Shown here piece by piece: positions 10,181-18,020 of a stretch of DNA of 33,810 nucleotides. The notes beneath the pieces are model-generated. The model did not search any database and was not told where the DNA came from. It saw only the letters and a program-made list of their open reading frames with translations. Location of the stretch: contig JAKEIC010000249.1 of the NCBI GenBank assembly GCA_022614695.1, positions 1 to 33,810 of the forward strand. Reading direction: 5' to 3'. Origin of the DNA: Planctomycetales bacterium. Lineage in GTDB: Bacteria; Planctomycetota; JAKEIC01. Within the stretch, counting starts at the first letter, position 1, and each line of letters starts with the position of its first letter. Made by a program: the position numbers and the translations under genes.

Positions 10181-13100
10181 CTACACCTTCTTCTTTTCGA
10201 GGACCATGTTCAGCGCGAGACCGCGGATCTCGTTCGTCAGGACGTCGAAGCTGACGGGCGTCCCGGGCTCGAGCGTGTTCTCGCCCTTCACCATCGCCTC
10301 GTAGATCTTCGTCCGCCCATCCACGTCGTCGCTCTTCACCGTGAGGAGCTCCTGGAGTATGAAGGCGGCACCGTAGGCCTCCAGCGCCCAGACTTCCATC
10401 TCCCCGAACCGCTGGCCCCCGAAGCGGGCCTTCCCGCCGAGCGGCTGCTGCGTGATCAGCGAATAGGGGCCCGTCGCCCGGGCGTGCACCTTGTCGTCCA
10501 CCAGGTGGTGGAGCTTGAGCATGTAGAGCTGCCCCACGGTCACCTTCTGGTCGAAGGCGTCCCCGGTACGGCCGTCGTGGAGCGTCACCTTGCCGTCGGG
10601 CGGGAGCCCCGCCTCCCGCAGCGCCGCCTCGATGTCGGCCTCCGTGCAGCCGTCGAACACCGGCGTGATCGCCTGGTAGCCGAGGAGCCGCGCCGCCCAG
10701 CCGAGGTGGGTCTCGAGGATCTGCCCCACGTTCATGCGGGAGGGGACCCCGAGGGGGTTCAGGACCATGTCCACGGGCGAGCCGTCCTCGAGGAACGGCA
10801 TGTCCTCCTCGGGGACGATCTTCGCGATCACGCCCTTGTTCCCGTGCCGGCCGGCCATCTTGTCCCCGACCGAGAGGTTTCGCCGCGTGGCGACGTAGAC
10901 CTTCACCATCTCGAGGACGCCGGTCGGGAGCTCGTCGCCCCGCGTCAGGCGCCCGACGACCCGGTTCTTCTCCTCGTCGGCCTCCTCGATCTTGTCGGAG
11001 TACTCCCGGATGACCCGGATCGCCTCCTCGCGGCCCTTCTGGCTCCGGATCCGGAGCACGTTCACGTTGAGCCTCTCGGCGATCTCCTTCAGCTCCGAGG
11101 CGCCCGCCCCCTCAGGCACGGTGACCCGCTGGCCCGACCGGACGTCCACGAGGGCCCCGCCCACGGCCTTCTCGAGCTCGCCCACCATCTCGCGGACGGC
11201 GCGCGAGAGCCGCCGCTGGTAGTCCTTCTCGGCCTTCCGGATCTCGGCCCGGTTCTGCTGCCGCTCCTCCTCGGAGATGTTCATCTTGCGCGAGAACTTC
11301 TGCGTATCAATGACGATCCCCTCGACGCCCGAAGGGACCTCCAGGCTCTCGTTCCGGACGTCCTCGCCGGCCCGCCCGAAGATCGCCTGCAGCAGCTTCT
11401 CCTCGGGGGCGAGCTCCGACTTCGTCTTCGGGGCGACCTTGCCGACCAGGATGTCGCCCGGCGAGACGCGGGTGCCCACCCGGACGATGCCGTCCTCGTC
11501 CAGGTTGCGGAGCGCCTTCTCCGACACGTTCGGGATGTCGCGCGTGAACTCCTCCCGCCCGAGCTTCGTCTCGCGGATCTCGATCTCGAACTCGTCAATG
11601 TGGAGGGACGTGAAGGTGTCCTCGCGCACCAGGCGATCGGAGACGACGATGGCGTCCTCGAAGTTGTGCCCGTCATAGGGCATGAAGGCGACCATGATGT
11701 TCTTGCCGAGGGCGAGCTCCCCGTCGCACGTCCCCGCGCCGTCGGCGATCACCTGCCCCGCCTTCACCTTGTCGCCCTCGTGCACAACGGGCTTCTGGTT
11801 GAGGCAGGTGCGGTCGTTGAGACCGGTGAACTTCCGGAGGCGGTACTTGCGGTCGTCCACCACGATCTCGGTGGCCGTGACGCGCGTGACCGTGCCGTCG
11901 GCCTCGGCCGTCTGGACCATGCCCGAGTTCTCGGCGACGGCCTTCTCCATCCCGGTCGAGACGATGGCCGGCTCGGTGCGCACGAGCGGGACGGCCTGCC
12001 GCTGCATGTTGCTCCCCATGAGGGCGCGGTTCGCGTCGTCGTGCTCGAGGAACGGGACGAGGCTCGCCGACACTCCGACGATCTGCTTCGGGGAGACGTC
12101 GGCGTACTCGACCTCCTCGGGAGAGGCCATCTTGAAGTCGCCCCCCTGGCGGACGAGCACGGGGCCCTCGCTCAGCTTCCCCCCCTCGCCCAGCGTGTCG
12201 GCCGGGGCGAGGACCGCGTTCACCTCCTGGTCGGCGCGGAGGTACACGACCTCGTCGGTCACCTTTCCCCTCTTCACGCGCCGGTACGGGGTGATGAGGA
12301 ACCCGTACTCGTCCACGGTCGCGTAGATCCCGAGCGACGAGATGAGCCCGATGTTGGTCCCCTCGGGCGTCTCGATGGGGCAGATGCGGCCGTAGTGGGA
12401 GATGTGGACGTCGCGCACCTCGAAGCCGGCGCGCTTGCGGTTGAGGCCCCCGGGGCCGAGGGCGGAGAGCCTCCGCTCGTGGGTGAGCTGGGCGAGCGGG
12501 TTCGTCTGGTCCACGACCTGGCTGAGCTCGCCGCGGGCGAAGAAGAACTCGATCGCCGACGAGATCGTCTTCGAGTTGATGATGCTCCGCGGGGTGAGCG
12601 TCTCTTTCGCCTCGAGGCTCATCCGCTCGGAGACGGTGCGCCGGAGCTTCAGGAACCCGCGCCGCAGCTCCTCGGCAAAGAGCTCGTCAATCGTGCGGAT
12701 CCGGCGGTTCCCGAGGTGGTCAATGTCGTCGAGCTCGCCCTCGTTGCGTCGGAGCCCCATGATGTAGCGGACGGCGTTCACGATGTCGAGCGGGTTGAGC
12801 GTCATCTCGGTCTCGGGGAGCGTCTGCTGGAACTTGCGGTTGAGCCGGAAGCGGCCGACCCGCCCGAGCCGGTAGCGGTTCCCGTCGAAGAACTTCTCCT
12901 TGAAGAGCTCCCGGGCCTTCTCGAGCTGCGGGGGATTGCCCGGACGGAGCCGGCCGTAGATCTTGAGGAGGGCCTCCTCGTGGGAGGACGAGGTGTCCTC
13001 CTTGATCGAGGTGAGGACGAGCGGGTCCTTCACCTCGGCGAGGATCTCGAGGGACTTGCGGTCCCCGGAGAGGACGGCGTCGGCGTGGCGCTCCTCCACC

Positions 13101-13858
13101 ACCTCGCCGCTCTTCAAGACCACCTCGCCGGTCTCGAAGTGGACCAGGTCGTCCACGACGTGCCGGCCGATCACCTTCTTCACGGAGGGCTTCCCGTGCA
13201 GCTCCACCTCCTCGACGGGGTAGAAGCAGCGCAGGACGTCGGCGTTCCGCGAGTAGGCCTCGCTCATCGCCCGCAGGAACGTGATGGCGGAGAACTTGCC
13301 GCTCTGGTCTATCTTGATGGTGAGCGTGTCCTTCTTGGAGACGTTCACCTCGATCCACGACCCGCGCTCCGGGATGATCCAGCACGAGTGGAGCTTCTTC
13401 TCGCCCGCGTTGGTCTCCTCGCTGAAGTCCACGCCGGGCGAGCGGTGGAGCTGGGCCACGATGACCCGCTCGGCTCCGTTCACGATGAACTCGCCGCCCC
13501 CGATCATGACCGGGATCTCGCCGAGGTAGACCTCCTCCTCGATCGGCTCCTCCCTCTCGAGCCGCACGCGGATCTTGAAGGGCATGCCGTAGCTCAGCCG
13601 GAGCTTGCGGCACTCGTCGGCCGTGTAGCGGGGGCGGCTCAGGTGATAGGAGACGAACTCGAGCGAGAGGCTCTTGTCCTGGCTCTGGATGGGGAAGCTC
13701 TCGGCGATGACGGCCTGGAGCCCGGCGTTCTCGCGCTTGTCGGGCGGGACGTCCGCCTGGAGGAACCGCCTGTAGGACTCGGTCTGGAGCTGGACCAGGT
13801 TCGGAGTGGGGTAGTCATCCGTGTAGCGTCCGAAGCGACGGATCTCTTTGGGCTTCAT
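10181..13858 (-). CDS. rpoB: RNA polymerase beta subunit
   Basis: Catalytic subunit of 1225 residues, shorter than E. coli (1342). Hallmarks are [29 protein letters not shown], and near the C terminus [15 protein letters not shown]. The rifampicin pocket reads [12 protein letters not shown] then T-H-E-R-R-L-S-A-L. The residues equivalent to D516 (here D450), H526 and S531 are retained, but Q510, F514 and M515 are E, V and V. ATG at 13856-13858 has purine-rich GGGAGAAGGG just before it. Confidence 0.99.
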
Positions 13859-16101: not shown

Positions 16102-16632
16102 TCAGACCGCCTCCACTTGCCAGTACTCGAGCTCCACCGGCGTCGCCCGGCCGAAGATCGTCACGATCACCTTCACGAGCCCCTTCTCAGGGTTCACTTC
16201 CTCGACCGTGCCCTCGAAGTTGAGGAACGGCCCGTCTTTGATGCGGATGTGGGCGCCCTTCTGGAACTCGATCCGGAGCTTCGGCTGGTCGGTCGGGCGC
16301 TCCATGTCGGTGAGGATCCGGTCCACGTCCTTGCGCTCCATCGGCACCGGGGCGCCGCGCGAGCCGATGAAGTCGCCGATGCCGGGCGTCTCGCGGATCA
16401 GGTACCAGGCGTCCTCCGTGCAGTCCATCTCGACCATCAGGTAGCCGGGGAAGATCTTCTTCTCGGTCACGCGGCGCTTGCCGCCCTTGATCTCGCTCAC
16501 GCGCTCGGAAGGTACGAGGACCCGCGAGATCTGCTCCTCGAGGTTCGCGGACTTCACGCGGCGCAGGAGCCCCTCTCGGATCGTGTCCTCCCGTCCCACC
16601 TGCACCCTCAGCACGTACCACTCCTTCGCCAC
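16102..16632 (-). CDS. nusG: Transcription termination/antitermination factor NusG
   Basis: 176-residue Spt5-family factor that binds RNA polymerase through its NGN domain. The NGN start [12 protein letters not shown] and F-P-G-Y-L-M-V-E-M (about 62-70) are clear. The C-terminal KOW domain reads [19 protein letters not shown] start at 16630-16632, 7 bp after secE. Length and order (secE-nusG-rplK) are canonical. Confidence 0.98.
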
Positions 16633-16639
16633 GCCGCGC

Positions 16640-17899
16640 CTACCTGCCGGACGACCCCGCCGACGTGGACCGGTAGAGGCCCGAGACGTTCGCCAGGCTC
16701 GCGAGCGCCAGGTCCACGACGTAGAGGTAGATGGCCAACGTCGCGATGCACGCGATCACGACCCCGGAGGAGCCCACCAGCTCGCGCCCCTTCGGCCACG
16801 AGACCTTCTTCATCTCGACCTCGGTCTCGATCAGGAAGTCGGCGACGCGGGGCTTGTTGAGGACCACGAAGATCACGAAGTAGCCGAGCGCGAGCCCGAC
16901 GCCGACCGAGATGAGGAACCCCGCCGAGAGGTCGAGGTCCACGACGGGGACCTGGCCGAGGAGGGGGCGCGTCCAGAATGTGGGGCGCTCCACCGAGTCG
17001 CTCGAGACGAGGGTGAAGCCCAAGAAGTCGTGCGGGGAACCGGATCGGATGGTTATCTCCCCGTCGTCCCGGACGCGGATCCCCTTCCGGGGCACATCGG
17101 CGGCCCGGATCTTCTCCACGTGGGCCCGGGTGACGGCCTCCCCCGCCTTCACGACGACTTCCTTCGGCCCCCGCTCCTTCGCGAGGACCGGCCCGAGGAG
17201 CTTGTGCCCGACCCGGAGTTCGAGAGGTTCCTTGAGCGACCCGGGCTTGCCGTCCTCCAGGACCTCGACGGGCCTCTCCTTCAAGGGGACGGCGCTCTGC
17301 GCGAGATCGCCCCGGATCTTCTCGACGTTCTCGGGGGTCACCTCGAGCCCCGCCTCGTGGAGCCGCAGGCGCGGCGCCTCATCGACCGTCTCGGCCGCGA
17401 GCCGCCCGAGGAGCCAGGTGTCATCGAGAGGGATCTCGTCCCGGTTCACGCCGTCCTTCTCCTGGACGGGGACCCGCCGGATCTTCTCCTGGCGGAGGCT
17501 CTCGATCCTCTCCTTCGTGAACTCGCCCCCCTGCGGGACGATCTCCTGCCCCTGGCTCCCGGCGATCTGGCGGGTCGCCTTCGCCCCGAGGAGAAGGTCG
17601 GAGACGGCCTGGTTCGAGAGCCCGTCCACGTGGATCTTCCAGCCGTCGGCGACGCCCGCGGCCCCCGCGTGCTCGGCGAGGGCCTCGAGCCTCTCCTTCG
17701 TGAGCACCTGGCTCTTCTGGACAACCCAGGCCTGCCGCGCGGGCACCTGGAAGACCGTGAGCGCGAACCAGAAGATGAAGATGGCGCAGAGTGCCCAGGC
17801 CGTCCCCCGCGCCCACATCCCCTGCCCCCACCTGTGGAGGCCGCCGGGGCGGGCGGGAGCGGGAGAGTCGGGCTTCCGGTCGGGCGTGGGCTCGGTCAC
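16640..17899 (-). CDS. secE: Preprotein translocase subunit SecE with a large extracytoplasmic insertion
   Basis: The last 60-70 residues are a textbook SecE core: amphipathic E-T-E-V-E-M-K-K-V-S-W-P-K-G-R-E-L followed by the conserved membrane helix. The whole protein is about 419 residues, against about 60-130 for known bacterial SecE. Layout: TM1 about 30-50, a hydrophilic region about 51-326, TM2 about 327-347, SecE helix, TM3 about 377-402. With a cytoplasmic N terminus the large region would lie outside the membrane, where three-helix SecE proteins such as that of E. coli have only a short loop. The region contains three to four copies of a G-x-x-[FV]-T-x-E-x-[IV]-E-x-[IL] motif (about 62, 124, 183, 252). 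GTG at 17897-17899 is 9 nt after GGGAGG; an alternative GTG at 17906-17908 touches that site and is less likely. It lies 7 bp before nusG and 30 bp after tRNA-Trp. Confidence 0.92.
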   Translation of the reverse strand: MTEPTPDRKPDSPAPARPGGLHRWGQGMWARGTAWALCAIFIFWFALTVFQVPARQAWVVQKSQVLTKERLEALAEHAGAAGVADGWKIHVDGLSNQAVSDLLLGAKATRQIAGSQGQEIVPQGGEFTKERIESLRQEKIRRVPVQEKDGVNRDEIPLDDTWLLGRLAAETVDEAPRLRLHEAGLEVTPENVEKIRGDLAQSAVPLKERPVEVLEDGKPGSLKEPLELRVGHKLLGPVLAKERGPKEVVVKAGEAVTRAHVEKIRAADVPRKGIRVRDDGEITIRSGSPHDFLGFTLVSSDSVERPTFWTRPLLGQVPVVDLDLSAGFLISVGVGLALGYFVIFVVLNKPRVADFLIETEVEMKKVSWPKGRELVGSSGVVIACIATLAIYLYVVDLALASLANVSGLYRSTSAGSSGR

Positions 17900-17929
17900 G
17901 CGACCCACCCTCCCGCGTCCTGGCTCTTA

Positions 17930-18003
17930 CAGGACGGGGGGGATTCGAACCCCCAGCCCGCGGATTTGGAGTCCGCTGCTCTACCAGTTGGAGCTACCGT
18001 CCT
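17930..18003 (-). tRNA. tRNA-Trp (anticodon CCA)
   Basis: 74 nt on the minus strand. The acceptor stem AGGACGG pairs with CCGTCCT and is followed by discriminator G. The anticodon arm GCGGA-CTCCAAA-TCCGC gives anticodon CCA. The T-arm GGGGG-TTCGAAT-CCCCC is perfect. The 3' CCA is not encoded. Its place between rpmG and secE matches the tuf-trnW-secE-nusG order of many bacteria. Confidence 0.97.
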
Positions 18004-18020
18004 AGGGGAGACCGTGGGGA

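Follow-up and report, generated by a model that had tools for sequence, protein, structure and literature searches.

A planctomycete SecE carries a tandem repeat array resembling BBM2/BEAN modules of RNA polymerase between its first two transmembrane helices

Introduction

In the universal protein channel, SecE is usually regarded as a clamp that is both minimal and invariant. The locus described here raises the question of why a SecE protein would contain some 250 additional residues, on which side of the membrane they would lie and from what kind of module they might derive. The locus is part of a 33,810-nucleotide stretch of DNA from a Planctomycetales bacterium (assembly GCA_022614695.1, contig JAKEIC010000249.1), referred to below as the window. 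A preliminary description, made from the sequence alone, had recognized a SecE core fused in one frame to a repeat-built domain between the first and second transmembrane helices (TM1 and TM2), had proposed that this domain sits at the exit side of SecYEG, where it might accept secreted proteins or link the channel to a partner in the envelope, and had mentioned in passing a similar stretch in RpoC. A literature search found no published description of such a SecE. We analyzed the gene, its insert and its relatives among the Planctomycetota, and we weigh below several explanations for the insert.

Results

An intact SecE at the standard secE locus

On the minus strand of the window, positions 16640–17899 form a single uninterrupted open reading frame that encodes a SecE of 419 amino acids. 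The stop codon occupies 16640–16642, and the start is either the GTG at 17899 or an in-frame GTG at 17908. A tRNA-Trp gene identified with ARAGORN lies upstream (17929–18004, minus strand) and nusG, recognized from its reading frame and translation, lies downstream (16102–16632, minus strand); the order tRNA-Trp, secE, nusG, rplK, rplA is the standard place for secE. Residues 354–402 match the SecE family PF00584 with E = 1.5e-12, passing the cut-off, and the core also matches TIGR00964 (E = 6.4e-11); it comprises the cytosolic amphipathic helix and TM3 and is encoded by 16691–16858 (minus strand). The reading frame, the PF00584 match and the ARAGORN prediction thus bear out a SecE core fused in one frame to a domain between TM1 and TM2 in a tRNA-Trp–secE–nusG context. 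No second SecE was found in the window's genome, which is 88% complete, and the gene is present there as a single copy.

SecE proteins of Planctomycetota share a layout in which a 'YK-GQGK-AR' box is followed by TM1, which a short loop connects to an 'IP-x-DL' box; TM2 and the core with TM3 come next. Every one of these elements is found in the window's SecE, including the N-terminal GQG box with TM1 (17744–17830, minus strand), which is common to other SecE proteins of the phylum, and the V/I-P box with TM2 (16859–16963, minus strand), assigned by the same comparison. What distinguishes the protein is an additional run of about 250 residues that separates TM1 from the IP box. One hydrophobic helix lies on each side of the insert, and another comes after the core. 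By homology with other SecE proteins and their topology, the insert is predicted to lie outside the cytoplasm, at the exit side of SecYEG. SecY has no matching insertion.

Four tandem units in the insert

The insert proper spans approximately residues 59–308 and consists of four tandem units of 59–70 residues. Aligned with itself, it scores 77, compared with a mean of 33 for shuffled sequences (standard deviation 6.4, maximum 56; none of 60 shuffles reached 77), and the alignment keeps a constant register that defines unit 1 (17546–17725), unit 2 (17369–17545), unit 3 (17159–17368) and unit 4 (16976–17158), all on the minus strand. The unit consensus can be written as LLGxxLAxxV....V-V-x-x-G-x-x-[VL]-T-x-E-x-[IV]-E-x-[IL]-R....V-x-V. 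The preliminary description had counted three to four copies in about 275 extra residues; the repeats themselves hold up and number four, and the extra domain is likewise real at a smaller size of about 250 residues, the larger figure including linkers. The insert lacks cysteine and is very rich in charged residues (38 K+R, 42 D+E). Its overall hydrophobicity is unremarkable, and no stretch of it is hydrophobic (the highest mean over 19 residues is 0.43). Its third-position GC content is 0.94, compared with 0.93–1.0 in the rest of the gene.

Searches of Pfam, NCBIfam and PDB sequences returned no credible family for the insert. A match to DNA polymerase theta (E between 0.06 and 0.11) was rejected as chance, and the two HD-GYP reading frames read in the window's genome had no matching motif.

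A full-length relative in a second family

The only other genome of the class that was examined, G001, belongs to the same order and a different family, and it encodes a full-length relative with the same fused architecture and 30% overall identity. Identity is 44% from TM2 to the C-terminus and 25% in the insert, which therefore diverges faster than the core. In a search of 392 genomes of the phylum with a two-sequence profile, only the window's own genome (G000) and G001 gave matches covering the insert, and a profile of the units found only the SecE copies in these two genomes, the next best match having E = 0.42. Two observations would have spoken against a genuine fusion: an N-terminal part encoded as a separate protein, and relatives with a short SecE and an independent gene for the domain. 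Neither was seen, since G001 shares the one-frame fusion and the unit profile detects nothing beyond the two SecE proteins. The occurrence of the same architecture in another family also indicates that the fusion is not an assembly error.

The units of G001 taken alone do not exceed shuffled sequences in self-alignment (11/60). Between the two proteins, the best conserved stretch of the array (Pa/Qa) comprises the last part of unit 1 together with most of unit 2. Against its positional counterpart it scores 58, compared with 24–42 for the other cross pairs, a pattern that an array older than the split between the window's lineage and that of G001 would produce. A tree built from NusG, L11 and L1 groups the window with a locus designated L032 as its sister (local support 0.98); the simplest interpretation is that the insertion occurred once, before the two diverged. 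The L032 locus lies on contig DYIT01000013, from an assembly of mine metagenome data that bears the label Candidatus Kuenenia stuttgartiensis; by inference it is the same contig as that of G001, whose SecE it carries. Its placement with the window suggests that this label is wrong. The insert is thus present in one deep lineage of Planctomycetota and is restricted to one class among the 392 genomes searched.

Unrelated domains at the same loop

In most of the SecE proteins of the phylum that we examined, the TM1–TM2 loop is about 6–40 residues long. The expectation that only a short loop would be found elsewhere therefore holds for most of the phylum and fails for at least 18 other SecE proteins, which have roughly 100–150 extra residues at this position. 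These counts come from regular expressions and hydropathy, with the sequences checked by eye, and are lower bounds. Eleven of the 18 belong to family f3 (L027, L028, L165, L219, L222, L223, L235, L238, L280, L281 and L282), where an unclassified insert of about 105–125 residues is present, other f3 members being short-looped. Three more are from f63 (G110, G184 and G397), and two are from f43 (L157 in G090 and L256 in G072), with an insert of roughly 150 residues that is unrelated to the window's by HHalign. The remaining two have a PDZ domain in the loop: G219 (L224/L161, family f56) matches PF14685 with E = 1.1e-5, and G400 (L227, family f63) matches PF13180 with E = 5.1e-6. With the isolated loop as query, each match narrowly passes the curated cut-off. 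Kinship with the window's insert was considered for the f43 inserts and for those of L213, L027 and L211 and was rejected, with HHalign probabilities below 3%. Because short loops occur within the same families f3, f56 and f63, gains or losses appear to be frequent. Domains of different kinds, unrelated to one another, occupy this loop of SecE across lineages of Planctomycetota.

Resemblance to insertion modules of RNA polymerase

The resemblance to RpoC provided the principal lead on the nature of the repeats. The stretch noticed earlier is correct: a BBM/BEAN-type segment lies in RpoC of the window's genome (7555–7719, minus strand; sequence comparison), and RpoB contains a second such module, the BBM2/BEAN insert beta-i4 (13028–13192, minus strand; RpoB alignment). 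In RNA polymerase beta, the insert i4 (SI1) consists of 1–6 tandem BBM2 repeats (PMC2939025). The BEAN domain has been described as an insert in RNA polymerase beta and beta', archaeal uL10, MoeA, OKR decarboxylase and ferredoxin (PMC11515920); SecE has 0 occurrences in that paper. From these two papers, we take the BBM2 repeat and the BEAN domain to describe the same thing here.

Three tests bear on the resemblance. First, a profile of the six clearest units was aligned by HHalign with planctomycete RpoB and RpoC segments, with 200 column permutations as a reference. The score against RpoB beta-i4 was 26.7 (probability 79%; best permutation 14.7) and that against RpoC was 25.1 (probability 69.8%; best permutation 14.1); the RpoB and RpoC segments aligned with each other, as a positive control, gave 42.6 and 96%. 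Membership in the BEAN group has been assigned at an HHalign probability above 70% (PMC11515920). The window's units alone gave 63% to RpoB and 9% to RpoC, and those of G001 alone gave 16% and 49%. Second, when the unit profile was slid over RpoB, RpoC, SecY, SecDF, NusG, L11 and L1, the seven best of 273 sequence segments were exactly the RpoB and RpoC modules, and the next best scored 14.9. Third, AlphaFold was used to model one unit from eight unit sequences. The best of five models reached a pLDDT of 83, the other four being poor (42–57), and its first PDB matches were RNA polymerase beta' (TM-score 0.84, rmsd 0.9, 47 columns) and then beta (3e7h), although no Foldseek match passed an E value of 0.001 (best 0.085). 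A search of 177,635 PDB sequences with the unit profile also pointed to RNA polymerase beta i4, near residues 246–287, with E = 0.084. A library of viral structures gave no match, and a whole-protein AlphaFold model built from a two-row alignment had a pLDDT of 40, from which no interpretation was drawn. The TGD/E motif of the RNA polymerase beta copies is absent from the SecE units in the alignment; BEAN domains outside RNA polymerase beta lack it as well (PMC11515920).

Because these three modest tests (profile, ranking of segments and unit model) agree, the units are likely to be BBM2/BEAN-like, forming a tandem insertion of four units between TM1 and TM2 of the host. Common descent with BBM2/BEAN modules is likewise likely, as judged from sequence profiles and a predicted fold, short of proven homology for units this small and of such low identity. 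Convergence on a common beta-alpha motif is possible for units of about 50–70 residues at this level of identity. We also considered whether the units were recently copied from the genome's own rpoB or rpoC; when modules are ranked by similarity, the native RpoB and RpoC modules come 2/7 and 6/25 for the window and 1/7 and 3/25 for G001. They are not clearly the closest, and a recent local copy is therefore not supported.

Discussion

Our results describe a real and unusual variant of a known protein, SecE, and not a new kind of system. We favor a reading, to which we assign a probability of about 0.5, in which a three-helix SecE has acquired four BBM2/BEAN-type modules in its TM1–TM2 loop that serve as a non-enzymatic docking arm at the exit side of the channel. 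Under this model, the loop would have gained four tandem beta-beta-alpha-beta modules in a single insertion, before the two known families of the class diverged, and the array would now dock accessory factors or an envelope component at the SecYEG exit. Candidate partners include the periplasmic domains of YidC or SecDF, or an envelope chaperone. Support for a translocon-borne domain at the channel exit comes from the fusion in a single frame, its conservation in a second family and the conserved SecE topology. Two suggestions of the preliminary description, the exit-side domain and the link to the RpoC stretch, gain support.

The docking role itself is a proposal that we would place slightly below even odds. 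Small loop domains recur at this position without any sign of enzymatic function, and PDZ domains, which are binding rather than catalytic modules, are among them; this recurrence suggests a binding role. Crosslinks between SecE and the periplasmic loop of YidC are known from E. coli (PMC5766551), which would place accessory factors near the position of the insert. A separate observation, apart from the docking argument, concerns the SecDF fusions of the two genomes (L201 in G000 and L202 in G001), in which the periplasmic domain of SecF is enlarged and about 20 additional residues form a cytosolic stretch; these features were not seen in six other genomes compared, except for a larger periplasmic domain in G005. 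A wider scenario is more tentative: modules of the RNA polymerase type would have entered secE, which heads the conserved cluster secE–nusG–rplKAJL–rpoBC, and become an extracytoplasmic arm, with the TM1–TM2 loop as a recurrent site for docking domains in Planctomycetota.

The most serious alternative is that the insert serves as a spacer or linker peculiar to this lineage, with no specific partner, built from duplicated repeats whose likeness to BBM2/BEAN reflects convergence on a short beta-turn-alpha motif. The poor conservation of the insert, the many relatives that have none and the lack of a credible Pfam match would all suit such a segment, and its short motif also weakly matches a 7TMR-HDED region (probability 11%). 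We nevertheless find this explanation rather unlikely: unit order and length are preserved across a divergence to 30% identity, the modules of RpoB and RpoC are well separated from the other 266 segments, and the match extends over 44–47 positions, well beyond a short motif.

An array that receives secreted substrates as a holdase or chaperone, in a role like that of PpiD or the SecDF P1 domain, would fit the exit-side position, and there is precedent for such a role beside SecYEG in PpiD and YfgM (PMC8082313). This reading appears improbable, because the insert has no similarity to any chaperone family, its composition is charged rather than hydrophobic and SecE is positioned around the back of SecY rather than at the lateral gate (PMC5766551). 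We consider it very improbable that the array instead shares kinship with 7TMR-HDED or other extracytoplasmic sensor regions. A planctomycete 7TMR-HDED region does contain a similar G-x-x-V-x-x-E-x-I-x-x-L stretch, but the weak match noted above covers only 32 columns of a thin, poorly built two-sequence alignment, PF07697 has no match in G000 or G001 and the insert itself matches no Pfam family. Finally, both genomes are fragmented assemblies, yet an artefact of assembly or gene calling that fused a short secE to a neighboring gene has a negligible chance given the same in-frame architecture in genomes of different families, the uniform third-position GC content and the phylum-typical SecE sequence on both sides of the insert.

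The large exit-side arm on this SecE and the repeated gains of unrelated domains at the loop across the phylum suggest that the channel can be customized for the unusual planctomycete envelope. Should the repeats be BBM2/BEAN modules, SecE would be a new host for them and the first predicted non-cytoplasmic one known to us. The authors who described the BEAN domain suggested that gene neighborhood near nusG, uL1 and uL11 influenced the insertions (PMC11515920), and this idea would then become testable because secE lies in that neighborhood.

Compared with known systems, the protein is closest in plan to the three-helix SecE of the E. coli type (PF00584/TIGR00964), with which it shares the cytosolic amphipathic core, TM3, two preceding helices and the secE–nusG order, and from which it differs by the approximately 250 residues, predicted to be extracytoplasmic, between TM1 and TM2. 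The PDZ-loop SecE proteins have a domain at the same loop, but theirs is a single PDZ domain of about 110 amino acids, unrelated in sequence and found in a different order. Large extracytoplasmic domains at the SecYEG exit are also known from PpiD/YfgM and from SecDF, as its P1 domain; these are separate proteins with other folds, and no sequence similarity was detected. The array is like the BBM2 repeats of beta-i4 in being a lineage-specific insert of tandem modules of about 50 residues, predicted to be beta-beta-alpha-beta, for which the profile and fold comparisons suggest similarity, whereas its host is a membrane channel subunit, it is predicted to lie outside the cytoplasm and it has no TGD/E motif. 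Relative to the BEAN domain, the SecE array differs in its four units and its predicted extracytoplasmic location, and resembles it as an insertional domain of unrelated hosts, several of which are encoded, as secE is, near nusG, rplK and rplA.
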